Origin: a bacterium
Lineage (GTDB): Bacteria > Hinthialibacterota > Hinthialibacteria > Hinthialibacterales > Hinthialibacteraceae
Length of the DNA stretch: 51,806 nucleotides
NCBI GenBank assembly: GCA_016125385.1
Contig: WGLV01000028.1
Span: 1 to 51,806 of the forward strand
Reading direction: 5' to 3'
A program made the translations under genes and the position numbers. Under the pieces are notes generated by a model. The model searched no databases, was not told the origin of the DNA, and saw nothing but the letters and a program-made list of their open reading frames with translations. The stretch's first letter is position 1; each line of letters opens with the position of its first letter. Positions 15,223 through 51,806 of this stretch are shown here, piece after piece.

Positions 15223-15374
15223 CGGCCAGCGGCTCAATCCATTTCTTTTTCAGCAGCGAATTATCCCGAACCGGAATCATGCATTTTCAGCAACCCGGCT
15301 GAAGCCGCTCAACCCCCGCGCGGACGGCGATCGCGCATACAATGAGCGATCATTTTCTATAGGGAGAAAAACGA

Positions 15375-20454: not shown

Positions 20455-22503
20455 ATGAAAAATCAATCCGTACCGATTCGCCTGTTCGCCCGGCCGACCC
20501 GTTCCGCATGGTTCAGCAAGGCGGGGTTGCCCCTCGCCATGCTGACCTGGGCGTGCGCCGCCGCGCTCGCGCATCCGCTGGGCAACTTTTCGCTCAACCA
20601 TTATAACGCCGCCGAGTTCCAAACCGGCGGGGTGGTGGTTCACCACATGCTCGACTTCGCCGAGATTCCCTCGTATAACGAGCTTTCGCGGCTCGACGCC
20701 GACAACGACTCGATCGTCACCCCGGCGGAGCTTGAGGCCTATCACAAGACGCTGCCAGAACGGTTCACCCCCAACTACGTCTTTGAAATGACGAACGGCG
20801 GCGAGGCGATCGCGATGAATCGCAACGATAGCGATTATGAGGTTAATCTGTTTTATGGACAGGGCGGCCTGACCTGTATTCAGGTGTCGTTTTATCAGGA
20901 ATTCACCCCGGTGAACGCGCTGCCTGCCGGTGAGTATCAGTTCAAGCTGGTGGATAACAATTTTCCTCACCTGCGCGGGTTTCAGGAAATCCGCATCACT
21001 TCGCGCCCGGGCGTGCAGGCGGTTCAATCGACCATCTTCAACAGTAATAACGAAGTCGCCGAACCTTCGGCGAATAACATGTTGTTTCTGCGGGGACTTG
21101 AGGCCAGCGGATCGGTCAAAGCCGAACAGAAGATCGAAGCGGCCCACCTGGAGCGAACCGACCTGTGGGAACTGATCAACCCGTCGTCGGTACAGCCTTA
21201 TCACCTGCCCGCGCGCGACGACGGATCGTTTAAAATTCTGCGTTCGCCGGTTCAACCTCAACTCGACGTGCAGAACAAGATCGCCGCGTTGCAGCCGCGC
21301 GCAACGGTCACCAGCGCCGAGTTGCTGAGCGGCGCGGCGGCTCCGGCGGGTTCAGCGCCCACGGCGGAAGCAAGCGTTTCGACGAAGACCGATTCAAGCC
21401 CCGCGCTCTCTCAACAGGACGCGCTGTACAGCCGCCCCAAACAGGAAGGGAAATGGGCCGACATGATCGGCGCGGAAAAGCTGAGCCTTCCCTTCATGCT
21501 GTTCGCGCTTTGCGCTTCGGTCCTGTTCGGCGCGGCTCACGCGTTGTCGCCCGGTCACGGCAAGACGGTGGTGGCGGCGTACCTGGTAGGCTCGCGCGGC
21601 ACCTTTCTTCACGCCATCTTTCTCGGGCTGGTGGTCACGATGACCCATGTCTCCACCGTGATCCTCATCGGCGTGATCACGCTCTATTTCTCGCAGTACA
21701 TCGTTCCCGATCAGCTCTACCCCATCATGGAAGGCGCATCGGGAGCGTTGATCGTGGCGATCGGCGTTTCGCTTTTTCTGCAGCGCTTCGCCGCGTATCA
21801 GCGCATGAAAGCCCGTTCCGCGCTCAACATCGCCGCCGCCGCGCATGGCCATACGCATGTCCACGCCGTGCCACACGATCACGGGCACTCTCACGACCAC
21901 GGGCATTCTCACGAACACGGACACGCTCACGAACACGGACACGCTCACGAACACGAGCATTCTCACGATCACGAGCATTCTCACGATCACGGGCACTCCC
22001 ACGATCACGGGCACTCTCACGACCACGAGCACTCTCATGATTACGGGCACTCTCACGATCACGGGCACTCTCATGACCACGGGCACTCTCACGATCATCA
22101 CCATCATGGCATCGGAGAATGGCTCCATCATGAGCATGGGCCGGATGACCATTCTCACGAGATTCCAGCCAACGCCACATGGAAAGACCTGTTGATTCTG
22201 GGCGTGACCGGCGGCGCGGTTCCATGCCCTTCAGCGGTGGTGGTATTGCTGGCGGCGATCGCGATGCACCGGATTCTGTTCGGCCTGCTGTTGATCGTTT
22301 TCTTCAGCCTCGGTCTGGCGGCGGTTCTGATCACAATCGGAATCCTGGTGGTCTCGGCGAAGTCGCTGATCGACCGCTTCGAGCAGGCGGGGCGCATGGC
22401 GGCATGGCTGCAGATCGTCTCGCCCGCGCTGGTGACGCTATTGGGCTTCGTCATCATGACGCGCGCGCTGATCAATAGCGGAATTATTACGATTCACTTA
22501 TGA
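20455..22503 (+). CDS. NicO/RcnA-type nickel/cobalt transporter with a long His-rich loop
   Basis: A 682-residue protein. A signal or anchor helix lies at residues 20-40. A ~300-residue extracytoplasmic N-terminal domain begins AHPLGNFSLNHYN, as in other long NicO-family proteins. The membrane part starts near 345 and has FGAAHALSPGHGKTVVAAYLVG, the metal-pathway motif of NicO/RcnA transporters. Residues ~464-570 are a loop of repeated HGHSHDHGHSHD units with over fifty histidines. Then GVTGGAVPCPSAVVVLL, the second signature, and the last helices follow. It moves Ni2+ or Co2+, in RcnA as an exporter. nikR follows 74 bp downstream, fixing nickel as the likely ligand. Confidence 0.9.
   Translation: MKNQSVPIRLFARPTRSAWFSKAGLPLAMLTWACAAALAHPLGNFSLNHYNAAEFQTGGVVVHHMLDFAEIPSYNELSRLDADNDSIVTPAELEAYHKTLPERFTPNYVFEMTNGGEAIAMNRNDSDYEVNLFYGQGGLTCIQVSFYQEFTPVNALPAGEYQFKLVDNNFPHLRGFQEIRITSRPGVQAVQSTIFNSNNEVAEPSANNMLFLRGLEASGSVKAEQKIEAAHLERTDLWELINPSSVQPYHLPARDDGSFKILRSPVQPQLDVQNKIAALQPRATVTSAELLSGAAAPAGSAPTAEASVSTKTDSSPALSQQDALYSRPKQEGKWADMIGAEKLSLPFMLFALCASVLFGAAHALSPGHGKTVVAAYLVGSRGTFLHAIFLGLVVTMTHVSTVILIGVITLYFSQYIVPDQLYPIMEGASGALIVAIGVSLFLQRFAAYQRMKARSALNIAAAAHGHTHVHAVPHDHGHSHDHGHSHEHGHAHEHGHAHEHEHSHDHEHSHDHGHSHDHGHSHDHEHSHDYGHSHDHGHSHDHGHSHDHHHHGIGEWLHHEHGPDDHSHEIPANATWKDLLILGVTGGAVPCPSAVVVLLAAIAMHRILFGLLLIVFFSLGLAAVLITIGILVVSAKSLIDRFEQAGRMAAWLQIVSPALVTLLGFVIMTRALINSGIITIHL
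21874..22108 (+). repeat. In-frame tandem repeat coding for the His-rich loop
   Basis: About thirteen imperfect copies of an 18-bp unit of the type CACGATCACGGGCACTCT, all kept in one frame (HDHGHS/HEHGHA). Variants change Asp to Glu or Ser to Ala without breaking the His spacing, so the unit is under protein-level selection. Length could vary between strains by slippage. Confidence 0.92.
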
Positions 22504-22577: not shown

Positions 22578-22997
22578 ATGCCGGAAGCGGTTCGATTCAG
22601 CGTATCCCTGTCGGAAGAACTGCTGGAAAAATTCGATCAACTGTTGCTGGAGAAAGCCTACGGAAACCGTTCGGAAGGCATCCGCGACCTGATCCGCGAT
22701 TTTCTGGTGCAGGAAGAAATCGACGCCAACAAGGATGTGGTCGGCGTGATTACGCTGGTTTACGACCACCACGTGCGCGAGTTGACCGATAACCTGATCT
22801 CTAAACAACACGACAGTACGGCGAAGGTCATCTCATCAATGCACGTTCATCTCGACCACCACAATTGCCTCGAAGTCATCGTGGCGCGCGGGAAGAGCAA
22901 GGTCCTTCACCAGTTCGCCGACGGGCTGATCGGTACGCGCGGCGTCAAACACGGCAAACTGGTCGTCACCTCCACCGGCGCCGATCTCCCCCGCTAG
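22578..22997 (+). CDS. nikR: Nickel-responsive regulator NikR
   Basis: A 139-residue repressor. The N-terminal ribbon-helix-helix (EAVRFSVSLSEELLEKFDQLL...RSEGIRDLIRDFL) binds DNA. The ACT-like C-terminal domain carries the square-planar nickel site with E. coli spacing: H78 (E. coli H76), H89, H91 and C97 (H87, H89, C95). It is expected to control nickel transport; here the adjacent NicO-type gene is the obvious target. AGAGAGGGTG lies about 10 nt before the ATG. The stop codon TAG is the first triplet of a dispersed repeat. Confidence 0.96.
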   Translation: MPEAVRFSVSLSEELLEKFDQLLLEKAYGNRSEGIRDLIRDFLVQEEIDANKDVVGVITLVYDHHVRELTDNLISKQHDSTAKVISSMHVHLDHHNCLEVIVARGKSKVLHQFADGLIGTRGVKHGKLVVTSTGADLPR

Positions 22998-23074
22998 CCG
23001 CGGGCAGCGCCCGGCCGACAGTGTCGGCTCCCCGACTTTGGATTATACGCGTTTAGCGCTCCCGCTGGTCACTG
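22995..23074 (+). repeat. Diverged copy of the 58-bp stop-codon repeat
   Basis: Starting exactly at the nikR stop codon (TAGCCGCGGGCAGCG), the sequence ends TTTGGATTATACGCG, then AGCGCTCCCGCTGGTC. The 3' half matches the unit repeated at 50210-50390 (TTTGGATTGTACGAATCAAGCGCTCCCGTTGGTC). The 5' half has insertions. Confidence 0.65.
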
Positions 23075-23096: not shown

Positions 23097-23215
23097 TTTC
23101 CTCCCCCAAAGTTTGGGGGAGGCCAAGGAGGGGGTTGGCTGAAAAATCGCGATGGCTGCGCAAGGCGCTCAACCCTCCTCTAACTCCCCCGATCTTCGGT
23201 GGGAGAATTTAAAGC
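23097..23215 (+). repeat. MITE-like inverted repeat, copy 1
   Basis: About 120 bp with related inverted ends of ~42 bp. The left arm holds a perfect 21-bp palindrome (CTCCCCCAAA-G-TTTGGGGGAG) then GGAGGGGGTTG; the right arm holds CAACCCTCC then CTCCCCC...GGGAG. The centre contains AAAAATCGCGATGGCTGCGC. A related copy lies at 51617-51694 on the other strand. There is no coding capacity. Confidence 0.7.
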
Positions 23216-23231
23216 GCTCCCGTTGGCGCTA
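23213..23231 (-). repeat. Partial stop-codon repeat (AGCGCTCCCGTTGG arm)
   Basis: On the minus strand the stop codon TAG of the M14-like gene is followed directly by CGCCAACGGGAGCGCT, the terminal arm of the 58-bp repeat family. The arm thus touches a stop codon again, here from its other end. Confidence 0.6.
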
Positions 23232-48984: not shown

Positions 48985-50214
48985 ATGACCGGGTCAAATA
49001 AAACCTCCACCATTCAGCGGCGCGGATTCCTTTCCGCCGGAGCGGCGGCCAGCGCCGGTCTGTTGCTTGTCAGTTCAAAAACGGCGTTCGGCGCGGAAGC
49101 CAACTCGGCTCTGCGCATGGGCGTGATCGGATGCGGCGGACGCGGCAACTACGTGTCGGGCGAGTTTATCCGGAACACCAATACCCAGATCGTCGCCCTC
49201 GCCGATCTGTTCGACGACCGGCTGAAATCGACGCAAGAGGGGCTTGGCAAGCGTCTGGCCGAACAGGGGCGTTCTCCCATCGAAGATTCACGGCTTTATA
49301 AAGGTCATGAAGCGTACAAAGACCTGCTGGCCAGCGAGCTCGATATGTGCCTGGTCACCAGCCCGCCCTACTTTCACCCCATCCACCTGAACGCGGTAGT
49401 CGACGCCGGCAAGCACGTCTATTGTGAAAAACCGGTGGCGGTCGACGTGGCCGGCGCCAAGCGCGTCATCGAGGCGGGGAACAAGGCCAAGGGCAAAAGC
49501 AGCCTGATGGTCGGCCTTCAGATTCGCAAAAGCCCCGAGTTTCAGGAAGTGACCTCGCGCGTCCACCAGGGCGACATCGGCGAAATCGTTTCAGGTTCCG
49601 CGTGGTATCACGCCGGGAGACTGGGCGCCCGCAACGTCGAAGGCGAGAGCGAACAGGACAGCCGCCTGCGCAACTGGGTGTTCGACCAGGTGCTCTCCGG
49701 CGACATCATCGTTGAACAGAACATCCACGTGATCGACGTGGTCAACTGGTATCTGCAATCTCACCCGGTCAAAGCGTTTGGTACCGGCGGACGCAAAGCG
49801 CGCGTCGACGTGGGCGACTGCTGGGATCACTTCCTCGTCACGTACTGGTATCCCAACGACGTGCGTATCGACTTCAGCTCGTCGCAATTTCTGGTGGGCT
49901 GGGGCGACTGCCGCGAGCGGATCTTCGGCAGCAAGGGCGTCGCCGAGTCTCCCTATAGCGGCGTGGCGCGCGTTACCGGCGAAAAAGCCTGGCAATCTGA
50001 AGACAAAGACCTGCTCGACGGCGCGGTAGCCGCCAAAGTCAGGGCGCTGGAGGAGAGCATCCGCGGCGGCGACTTTGTCAACGAAGCGCAGATGGGCGCG
50101 CAGAGCACCCTCACCAGCATTCTGGGCCGCATCGCCGCTTACGGTGAAAAGGTGGTTACCTGGGACGAGATGATGCAGTCGAACCTCGAACTCGACCCCA
50201 AACTCAGTTGGTAG
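48985..50214 (+). CDS. Tat-exported Gfo/Idh/MocA-family oxidoreductase
   Basis: A 409-residue NAD(P)-dependent enzyme. The twin-arginine signal QRRGFLSAGAAASAGLLLV is cleaved near the GAEA site around residue 38. The Rossmann nucleotide site is RMGVIGCGGRGNY. EKPVAVDVAGAK holds the catalytic Lys (EKP), and later EQNIHVIDVVNWYL gives the expected His. Such exported members are very numerous in Planctomycetes, Lentisphaerae and Hydrogenedentes, acting on sugars or glycosides. The substrate is unknown. The stop codon TAG is also the first triplet of a tandem repeat. Confidence 0.93.
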   Translation: MTGSNKTSTIQRRGFLSAGAAASAGLLLVSSKTAFGAEANSALRMGVIGCGGRGNYVSGEFIRNTNTQIVALADLFDDRLKSTQEGLGKRLAEQGRSPIEDSRLYKGHEAYKDLLASELDMCLVTSPPYFHPIHLNAVVDAGKHVYCEKPVAVDVAGAKRVIEAGNKAKGKSSLMVGLQIRKSPEFQEVTSRVHQGDIGEIVSGSAWYHAGRLGARNVEGESEQDSRLRNWVFDQVLSGDIIVEQNIHVIDVVNWYLQSHPVKAFGTGGRKARVDVGDCWDHFLVTYWYPNDVRIDFSSSQFLVGWGDCRERIFGSKGVAESPYSGVARVTGEKAWQSEDKDLLDGAVAAKVRALEESIRGGDFVNEAQMGAQSTLTSILGRIAAYGEKVVTWDEMMQSNLELDPKLSW

Positions 50215-50390
50215 CGGCCAGCGGCCGGGGCGAGTATTTGGAGTTGTACGCATTAAGCGCGCCCGCTGGTAGCGGCCAGCGGCCGGGGCGAGTATTTGGA
50301 TTGTACGAATCAAGCGCTCCCGTTGGTCGCAGCCAGCGGCCGGGGCGAGTATTTGGGGTTGTATGAATCAAGCGCTCCCGTTGGTCGCTG
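50210..50390 (+). repeat. Three tandem copies of a 57-58-bp imperfect palindrome
   Basis: Units begin at 50210, 50268 and 50325 with GGTAGCGGCCAGCGG (third: GGTCGCAGCCAGCGG). They continue CCGGGGCGAGTATTTGG, a TTGTACGAATCAA-like spacer and AGCGCTCCCGTTGG. The start (AGCGGCCAGCGG) and end (CCGTTGGTCGCT) are inverted repeats with G-T pairs, so each unit folds into a hairpin and neighbours share an arm. The first unit supplies the stop codon of the upstream oxidoreductase gene. Confidence 0.93.
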
Positions 50391-50483
50391 AGGTTATTGG
50401 ATGAGGGAATGCGCCAGAAATTTTGGCGAATAAGAAACGCGGGAGTCTCTTGGGCGCATCAAAAAAAACAAATCGATCAATTA

Positions 50484-50510
50484 CAGGGGCGGGTTTCAAA
50501 TCCGCCCCTG
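50484..50510. repeat. Dispersed palindrome, copy C
   Basis: A 27-bp near-perfect palindrome with arms CAGGGGCGGGTTT and AAATCCGCCCCTG (one mismatch) around a C. It lies 40 bp beyond the 3' end of the GT2 gene on the other strand. Confidence 0.85.
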
Positions 50511-50549
50511 CGTGTTTCGGGGCGGATCAACGGAATCGATCACAGAGAA

Positions 50550-51503
50550 TCAGGAGTGTTCCGTTTTCGCGACCGGTTTCCACGTGTTGATCAATACGCG
50601 CCACGACGACGCGCGCGAAAAATCCGACCAGCCTCCCCAAAACAGACGCCAGACCATCTTCATCGTGAGGTATCCCCGCAGCCGCCACAACGCCAGCGCA
50701 CCAAAATGCTTGCGGGTGAAATAACACTGGCTGAGACGATATTCAATCTCGGTCGCATCGCGTTCGGTCTTCATACTGGCGCCGTGCACGTGTCGAACCC
50801 TGACCTCAGGCGTGTGATAGATACGCCCGCCGTGTTCGAGAATCCTCAGGCACCAGTCAATGTCTTCAAAATAGAGAAAAAAGTTTTCATCCCACCTCCC
50901 CGCGTCTTCCACCGTCAACCGGGGGAACAACATGCACGAACCCGAAACCCAATCAACCAGCCGGGTGCGCGCGGCGATGCGCGCGGCTTCATTGCGCGCC
51001 CACGTCTCGCGCAGCGCGAGGCCGCGCTCCAGACGGCGGCGGCGCCATTCAGCGGCGGGGATGGGGCGCTCGCCCCAAGTGAGTTGAGGCCAACCGTCGT
51101 CTTCGAGATGAAGCGGCGCCAGCAGCGCGGGAAAATCGAGCCGCTCCCACACCCGGCAGAGCGAAAAAAGCGCGTCAGGAGTCAGATCAACATCACTGTT
51201 CATCAACAAAATGAGGCGTTCACGAGTGGCGGAAAGCCCTTCGTTAACGGCGGTCGAGTATCCACCGTTTTCAGCGCGGGCGATCAGTTTTACTTCAGGG
51301 AACCGCGTTTCCACCATGCCCGCCGAGCCGTCGGTGGATGCGTTGTCGACCACAGTGATACTGACGCGGCGAGGCCGCGACTTGATCGATTCAGCGCCGT
51401 TCAATAACGAGCCGAGCAGGCGTTGAAGATGCGGCGAAGCGTTGTAGTTGATGATGATGACGTCGATCACGATGGATGACCCACACTCTCGCGAGCGGTG
51501 CAT
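50550..51503 (-). CDS. Glycosyltransferase, GT2 family (rhamnosyltransferase-like)
   Basis: A 317-residue GT-A enzyme. VIIINYNASPHLQRLLGSLL is the usual N-terminal strand, VVDNASTDGSAGMVE the nucleotide site, LILLMNSDVDL the DxD motif, and DENFFLYFEDIDWCLRI the acceptor/catalytic stretch with the ED(x)D base. VRVRHVHGAS follows, as in WbbL-type rhamnosyltransferases. The first ~12 residues look spurious; a GTG near residue 12 may be the real start. It probably adds a deoxysugar to a surface glycan. Confidence 0.9.
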   Translation of the reverse strand: MHRSRECGSSIVIDVIIINYNASPHLQRLLGSLLNGAESIKSRPRRVSITVVDNASTDGSAGMVETRFPEVKLIARAENGGYSTAVNEGLSATRERLILLMNSDVDLTPDALFSLCRVWERLDFPALLAPLHLEDDGWPQLTWGERPIPAAEWRRRRLERGLALRETWARNEAARIAARTRLVDWVSGSCMLFPRLTVEDAGRWDENFFLYFEDIDWCLRILEHGGRIYHTPEVRVRHVHGASMKTERDATEIEYRLSQCYFTRKHFGALALWRLRGYLTMKMVWRLFWGGWSDFSRASSWRVLINTWKPVAKTEHS

Positions 51504-51753: not shown

Positions 51754-51775
51754 TACATCCCGCTCGCTTCAGGGA

Positions 51776-51789
51776 CCAACGGGAGCGCT
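51776..51789 (-). repeat. Stop-codon repeat arm at the window edge
   Basis: The minus strand reads AGCGCTCCCGTTGG, identical to the arms at 23213 and in the tandem array at 50210-50390. The rest of the unit would lie towards lower coordinates but is not recognisable. Confidence 0.6.
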
Positions 51790-51806
51790 AAACGTGCAGA
51801 TCCCAA

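Follow-up and report, generated by a model that had tools for sequence, protein, structure and literature searches.

Why does a tandem repeat begin at the very base that follows a stop codon? The question is raised by a 58-bp tandem array (3.1 copies with 90% matches at 50207–50385 by tandem-repeat analysis) in the window, that is, the whole 51,806-nt stretch of bacterial DNA analyzed here. The original prediction let the 58-bp unit begin exactly at the TAG of an oxidoreductase gene. The array is real: three copies of 57–58 bp occupy 50215–50387 behind the TAG at 50212–50214, and the first unit, as defined by a sequence profile and hereafter called unit A, begins at 50215, the base next to the TAG. 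The locus is composed as follows.

50212–50214, + strand: TAG stop codon of a Gfo/Idh/MocA-type oxidoreductase gene (48985–50214); family orthologues share the protein length
50215–50272, + strand: unit A copy 1, adjoining the stop codon directly and beginning with the 13-nt hairpin CGGCCAGCGGCCG (nhmmer profile, covariance model)
50273–50329, + strand: unit A copy 2 (nhmmer profile, covariance model)
50330–50387, + strand: unit A copy 3 (nhmmer profile, covariance model)
50388–50419, + strand: conserved tail of the last copy (CTGAGGTTATTGGATGAG...), then a variable hairpin module ending AATAAGAAACG (alignment of units)
50484–50511, no strand assigned: module C, a GTAG-REP-like repeat of this genome in the form of the 28-bp palindrome CAGGGGCGGGTTTCAAATCCGCCCCTGC (the same palindrome occurs inside a RAYT-like ORF)

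Since the gene ends in the codons AGT TGG TAG, which resemble the 3′ end of the unit, another possible phase of the array starts at 50207 (GTTGGTAG); in view of this resemblance, the final codons may have been overwritten.

Unit A is abundant in its own genome. With a profile of the window copies, an iterative search of 847 kb of this genome yielded 125 units in 100 arrays, and a covariance model built from 56 units gave at least 148 matches, with only 150 candidates scored. The 14-mer AGCGCTCCCGYTGG has 109 matches genome-wide at up to one mismatch versus 7 for the reversed control. None of the units of the first set lies inside a called gene.

Copies of unit A, in sense orientation, prefer the bases that immediately follow native stop codons; among the modules tested, only unit A has this preference. 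Distances were counted for the first unit of each intergenic region whose 5′ neighbor is a stop codon on the same strand. In the 63 such regions (54 from the first set and nine found only by the covariance model), 25 first units begin 0–4 nt behind the stop, including 15 with a distance of 0 nt; a single one lies at 20–46 nt, and about half of them are not near the stop. The held-out regions, known from the covariance model only and counted after two duplicates of first-set places had been removed by hand, repeat the pattern, with 7/9 at 0–4 nt and 5/9 at exactly 0. When position and orientation were randomized within the same intergenic regions, 0.87 arrays fell at 0–4 nt versus 18 observed, and the maximum in 2000 rounds was six. 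Random placement of the genome-wide copies relative to stops, which had been named as the outcome that would overturn the idea, is thus not what is found. Flush placement is not seen in regions with a start codon upstream, and the control modules C, D1, and D2 have none of their stop-facing ends at 0–4 nt (0/82, 0/93, and 0/52, respectively; 0/227 together). Several units at 4–19 nt from the stop are preceded by a complete or partial mini-hairpin that itself starts at the stop, and these stand outside the statistics. In a loose test that accepts any hairpin 0–1 nt after stops, the background is 29%.

The gene calls come from a simple, home-made codon scorer, and the placement might for this reason be ascribed to an artifact of gene calling, or to chance. 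However, stop positions are fixed by the reading frame, and the randomization, the other-module controls, and the held-out set all agree; this explanation is refuted and hardly conceivable now. As for sampling, the stretches sampled first were picked for holding repeats, while a second sample of 800 kb was picked away from known copies, so that it is a background and not a random sample; it contains only four weak matches.

Three further gene ends in the window had been thought to share the junction, and these turned out to be of mixed quality. The relevant features are:

15223–15232, + strand: CGGCCAGCGG after the TAA of an APH-like gene, a possible relic without a profile match
22995–22997, + strand: TAG stop codon of nikR
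23001–23013, + strand: extra mini-hairpin CGGGCAGCGCCCG preceding the unit, 3 nt after the nikR TAG
23015–23071, + strand: diverged unit A of the CCGACAGTGTCGG hairpin type (nhmmer profile, covariance model)
23097–23122, no strand assigned: module D1, palindrome TTTCCTCCCCCAAAGTTTGGGGGAGG
23213–23228, + strand: truncated unit A, its 3′ end (AGCGCTCCCGTTGGCG) abutting the stop (CTA, 23229–23231) of a convergent M14-like gene
51774–51806, − strand: unit A truncated by the window end (nhmmer profile, covariance model)

At nikR, a diverged copy does follow the TAG, in that the mini-hairpin comes 3 nt after the stop, but the unit proper starts only 17 nt after it. The 3′ end of a unit indeed abuts the minus-strand stop of the M14-like gene, though from the other side, and the junction is not the same as the others because a half unit lies there in the opposite orientation. 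Behind the TAA of the APH-like gene, the 10-base match is present but is unproven as a family member, and about 25 one-mismatch matches occur within the window. The ORF directly upstream of nikR (20455–22503), which has a DsbD_2 domain, contains 12 copies of an 18-bp repeat at 21874–22097 that encode a histidine-rich stretch (HDHGHS-like); judged from its sequence, this stretch resembles the loop with which a metal transporter binds its metal.

Do the stop codons belong to the genes or to the repeat? The product of the window gene stops at the same length as its family orthologues (ends DPKLSW, DPKLKL, and DVKINI), the SecA end is within one codon of those of four relatives, all of which are without the unit, and RNase Y and lipoamide dehydrogenase match to the last position of the NCBIfam equivalog models. 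In these cases, therefore, the unit stands behind the original stop codon. An element that brings an NTAG tag at its 5′ end, which then becomes the new stop, would account for the over-representation of TAG (13/29 abutting stops), for the TTGGTAG shared by the last codons of the window gene and the 3′ end of the unit, and for the negative-distance copies, in which genes do end inside the unit. The agreement of protein lengths with orthologues or family models disfavors such a supplied stop, TGA and TAA together make up more than half of the abutting stops, and units elsewhere are without the tag, so that this origin of the stops is very improbable.

The base before the stop is biased too. Of the 29 arrays that abut a stop, 12 are preceded by CTAG, as are 3 of 8 held-out ones, compared with 10 of 549 stops in the background stretches chosen away from known copies, i.e., CTAG stops are over-represented about 20-fold. 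This excess would be expected if single-strand (IS200/IS605 or RAYT-like) or other transposition inserted the element 3′ of CTAG or CTRR and only stop-adjacent insertions were harmless. A parallel is offered by group 3 REPs, which are 10-nt palindromes with a short loop and are likewise preceded by a tetranucleotide (PMC8266576). However, the unit stands directly behind 8 of 31 CTAG stop codons versus none of 150 intergenic and none of 89 coding CTAGs (0/239, p about 1e-8). In addition, CTAG is not found in front of units away from stops, and no RAYT-like gene is linked to unit A. A pure CTAG/CTRR target site is refuted by the intergenic and coding counts, and insertion by target site is altogether unlikely.

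The unit itself, of approximately 57–62 nt, consists of a 5′ covarying hairpin of 13 nt, a conserved linear sequence ending GCGCTCCCGYTGGTYGCTGA, and a tail that is near GATNGAG in the alignment. The hairpin has the form NNNNC-AGY-GNNNN, and its arms vary between copies (CGGGC, CCGAC, CGGCC, CGGAC, and CAGGC) and remain complementary despite this variation, with 95% of the cells pairing. Double-sided changes are seen in 52 cells versus 14.0 (sd 4.6) in shuffles; the covariation score is reached by none of 500 shuffles, and slid controls pair at 15–46%. The top two column pairs by mutual information in the whole alignment are the hairpin pairs 4–10 and 2–12. A second helix (AGCG..YGCT) is weaker, with mostly one-sided variation, and single units fold as RNA mostly no better than shuffles; the structure of unit A is supported by covariation only. 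G-U intermediates are few among the covarying pairs, and a concerted change of the two arms at the DNA level accounts for this scarcity no less well than does stepwise compensation in RNA.

These features bear on a functional 3′-UTR element, in which the stop-flush hairpin would be selected for acting on termination, ribosome release, or 3′-to-5′ mRNA decay. Such a role is possible, though clearly the less probable reading. It agrees with the dependence of the association on the stop codon rather than on the tetranucleotide, with the sense orientation and the covarying hairpin, and with a precedent, namely that REPs within 15 nt of the stop affect translation (PMC12306157). On the other hand, flush copies are not better conserved than others (bit scores, p = 0.36; perfect hairpins, 61% vs. 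65%), so that the prediction by which selection would have shown itself is not seen; the unit is carried by only a few dozen genes of unrelated functions; the C-TAG preference stays unexplained; and the few G-U intermediates suit the DNA-level change no less.

A pure target site is refuted and flush copies show no better conservation, so neither process in its simple form, insertion or selection, explains everything. Between the two, there is some preference for an insertion bias that needs the stop context over selection at the mRNA level, given how sharp the boundary is and that CTAG is favored. Our main reading, to which we give a probability of about 0.55, is that unit A, a non-coding repeat specific to its lineage and dispersed over intergenic regions, behaves as a mosaic element of the REP/BIME type and sits flush behind native stops. 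The unit would multiply as tandem copies and also within larger composites that contain other palindromic modules. The sharp 5′ boundary, the foot of the hairpin against the stop triplet, may come from an insertion step that favors the position behind a stop, most of all C-TAG, and this bias would act together with selection that tolerates copies behind stops. In the mRNA, the hairpin would then lie in the 3′ UTR, right next to the ribosome as it terminates, and could influence termination or the decay of the mRNA, as stop-proximal REPs do. Weighing against this reading, neither a mobilizing enzyme nor an empty site or target duplication was seen, the genomes compared all lying outside the genus.

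Rather doubtful, and to be taken as tentative, is a mobile repeat directed to stop codons as such, through translation termination or the single-stranded DNA or RNA state behind the stop and not through a DNA target sequence. If true, stop-directed insertion would let a selfish element settle behind genes, where it does no harm. With about 150 copies, a single genome allows a direct test of whether insertion or selection gave rise to the stop placement.

How does the main reading, a REP/BIME-like mosaic repeat behind native stops, compare with REPs proper? A REP is a short palindrome that carries a GTAG or CGTC tag (PMC3733652) and is mobilized, or thought to be mobilized, by TnpA-REP (PMC8266576). 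According to PMC12306157, which cites earlier work, about half of the E. coli REPs are reported to be stop-proximal and capable of stalling ribosomes immediately before the stop codon, and translation is lowered by REPs less than 16 nt from the stop. The proposed REP-type nature holds for behavior and not for class membership. Like REP/BIME repeats with their RAYT, unit A is extragenic and hairpin-bearing, occurs in more than 100 copies and in mosaics, and lies within 15 nt of stop codons. Unlike them, it is a direct tandem of mostly conserved linear sequence: the 4-mers before off-stop units are AGAA, GAGG, CTGG, and many singletons in place of a conserved 5′ GTAG or CGTC tag, only 13 of the approximately 57 nt are in the covarying hairpin where a REP is palindromic as a whole, and the arrays run head-to-tail and not as the inverted pairs of BIMEs or REPINs. 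Also, E. coli stop-proximal repeats are known mostly as lying at a distance below 15 nt, whereas here the edge of the unit falls right at the stop codon, and the accompanying CTAG bias depends on the stop. The suggested RAYT (TnpA-REP) link was not borne out: the two Y1_Tnp matches in the genome (C71:76639 and C55:18137) have neighborhoods that carry GTGGGACCGG..CCGGTCATG repeats and a GTAG palindrome, not unit A. We read unit A as a lineage-specific mosaic repeat of a REP/BIME-like kind that is without the defining features of REPs.

RAYT-like genes with palindromes of their own are found in the genome. A RAYT-like ORF at L032:1393–2040 has the GTAG-type palindrome of the genome in frame (..KPVGAGLKPAPTS..), and a second one (L031:1160–2200) has, on either side, many GTGGGACCGGCGCCCTCGCCGGTCATG-type repeats, which form a REP type of their own. 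Module C (GTAGGGGCGGGTTTCAAACCCGCCCCTAC) shares the genome and the composites with unit A; in contrast to it, module C is a perfect long palindrome with a GTAG tag, lies within a RAYT-like ORF, and is never 0–4 nt from stops.

Other identities fail on the features tested. MITEs and the RU-type repeats of enterobacteria are, like unit A, short, dispersed, non-coding, and intergenic, but the aligned units have no terminal inverted repeats, and their hairpin is at the 5′ end only. An integron attC site likewise follows directly after a stop codon and has a structure conserved more than its sequence, but unit A has no R″/R′ core pair at its ends (RYYYAAC ... GTTRRRY; by eye, the 5′ end of the alignment is without the AAC core), and its hosts are housekeeping genes in place, not cassettes. 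For an intrinsic terminator, no terminator-like site with a GC-rich stem and a T tract occurs in 49900–50700. In Rfam, the best match for 50150–50560 of the window is only RF02901, with 23 bits versus a gathering score of 97, and hence no family.

The repeat appears to be young. The covariance model found no unit A in 13 other genomes of the phylum; together with the 148 matches in its own genome, this indicates a recent, lineage-specific spread. Furthermore, the consensus has no blastn match in 40 relatives, and the 20-nt core GCGCTCCCGYTGGTYGCTGA has no exact match in the viral contigs searched. In its own genome, 14 of the 148 matches are at most 1 kb from a contig end versus about four expected (e.g., C9, C14, C47, C67, C74, and C33), which suggests that the arrays break the assembly and that the true copy number is higher.

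Behind the last unit, modules often come in a similar order, namely the variable hairpin module, the 28-bp GTAG-type palindrome, and polyC/polyG hairpins, and one locus has a repeated composite of about 306 bp. At L070:5572–6084, a tandem is built of units in alternation with a strong terminator-like hairpin (AAAACGCCCCCTGCGCTCGCCGCACGGGGGCGTTTGA). Finally, the 20-nt core also occurs outside this genome (L116–L124, L126, L131, L132, L134, and L135), through either convergence or a distant relationship, in intergenic-looking repeats of Rikenellaceae/Alistipes and of a Calditrichia MAG, where it is framed by ATGGC/ATGGTT motifs.
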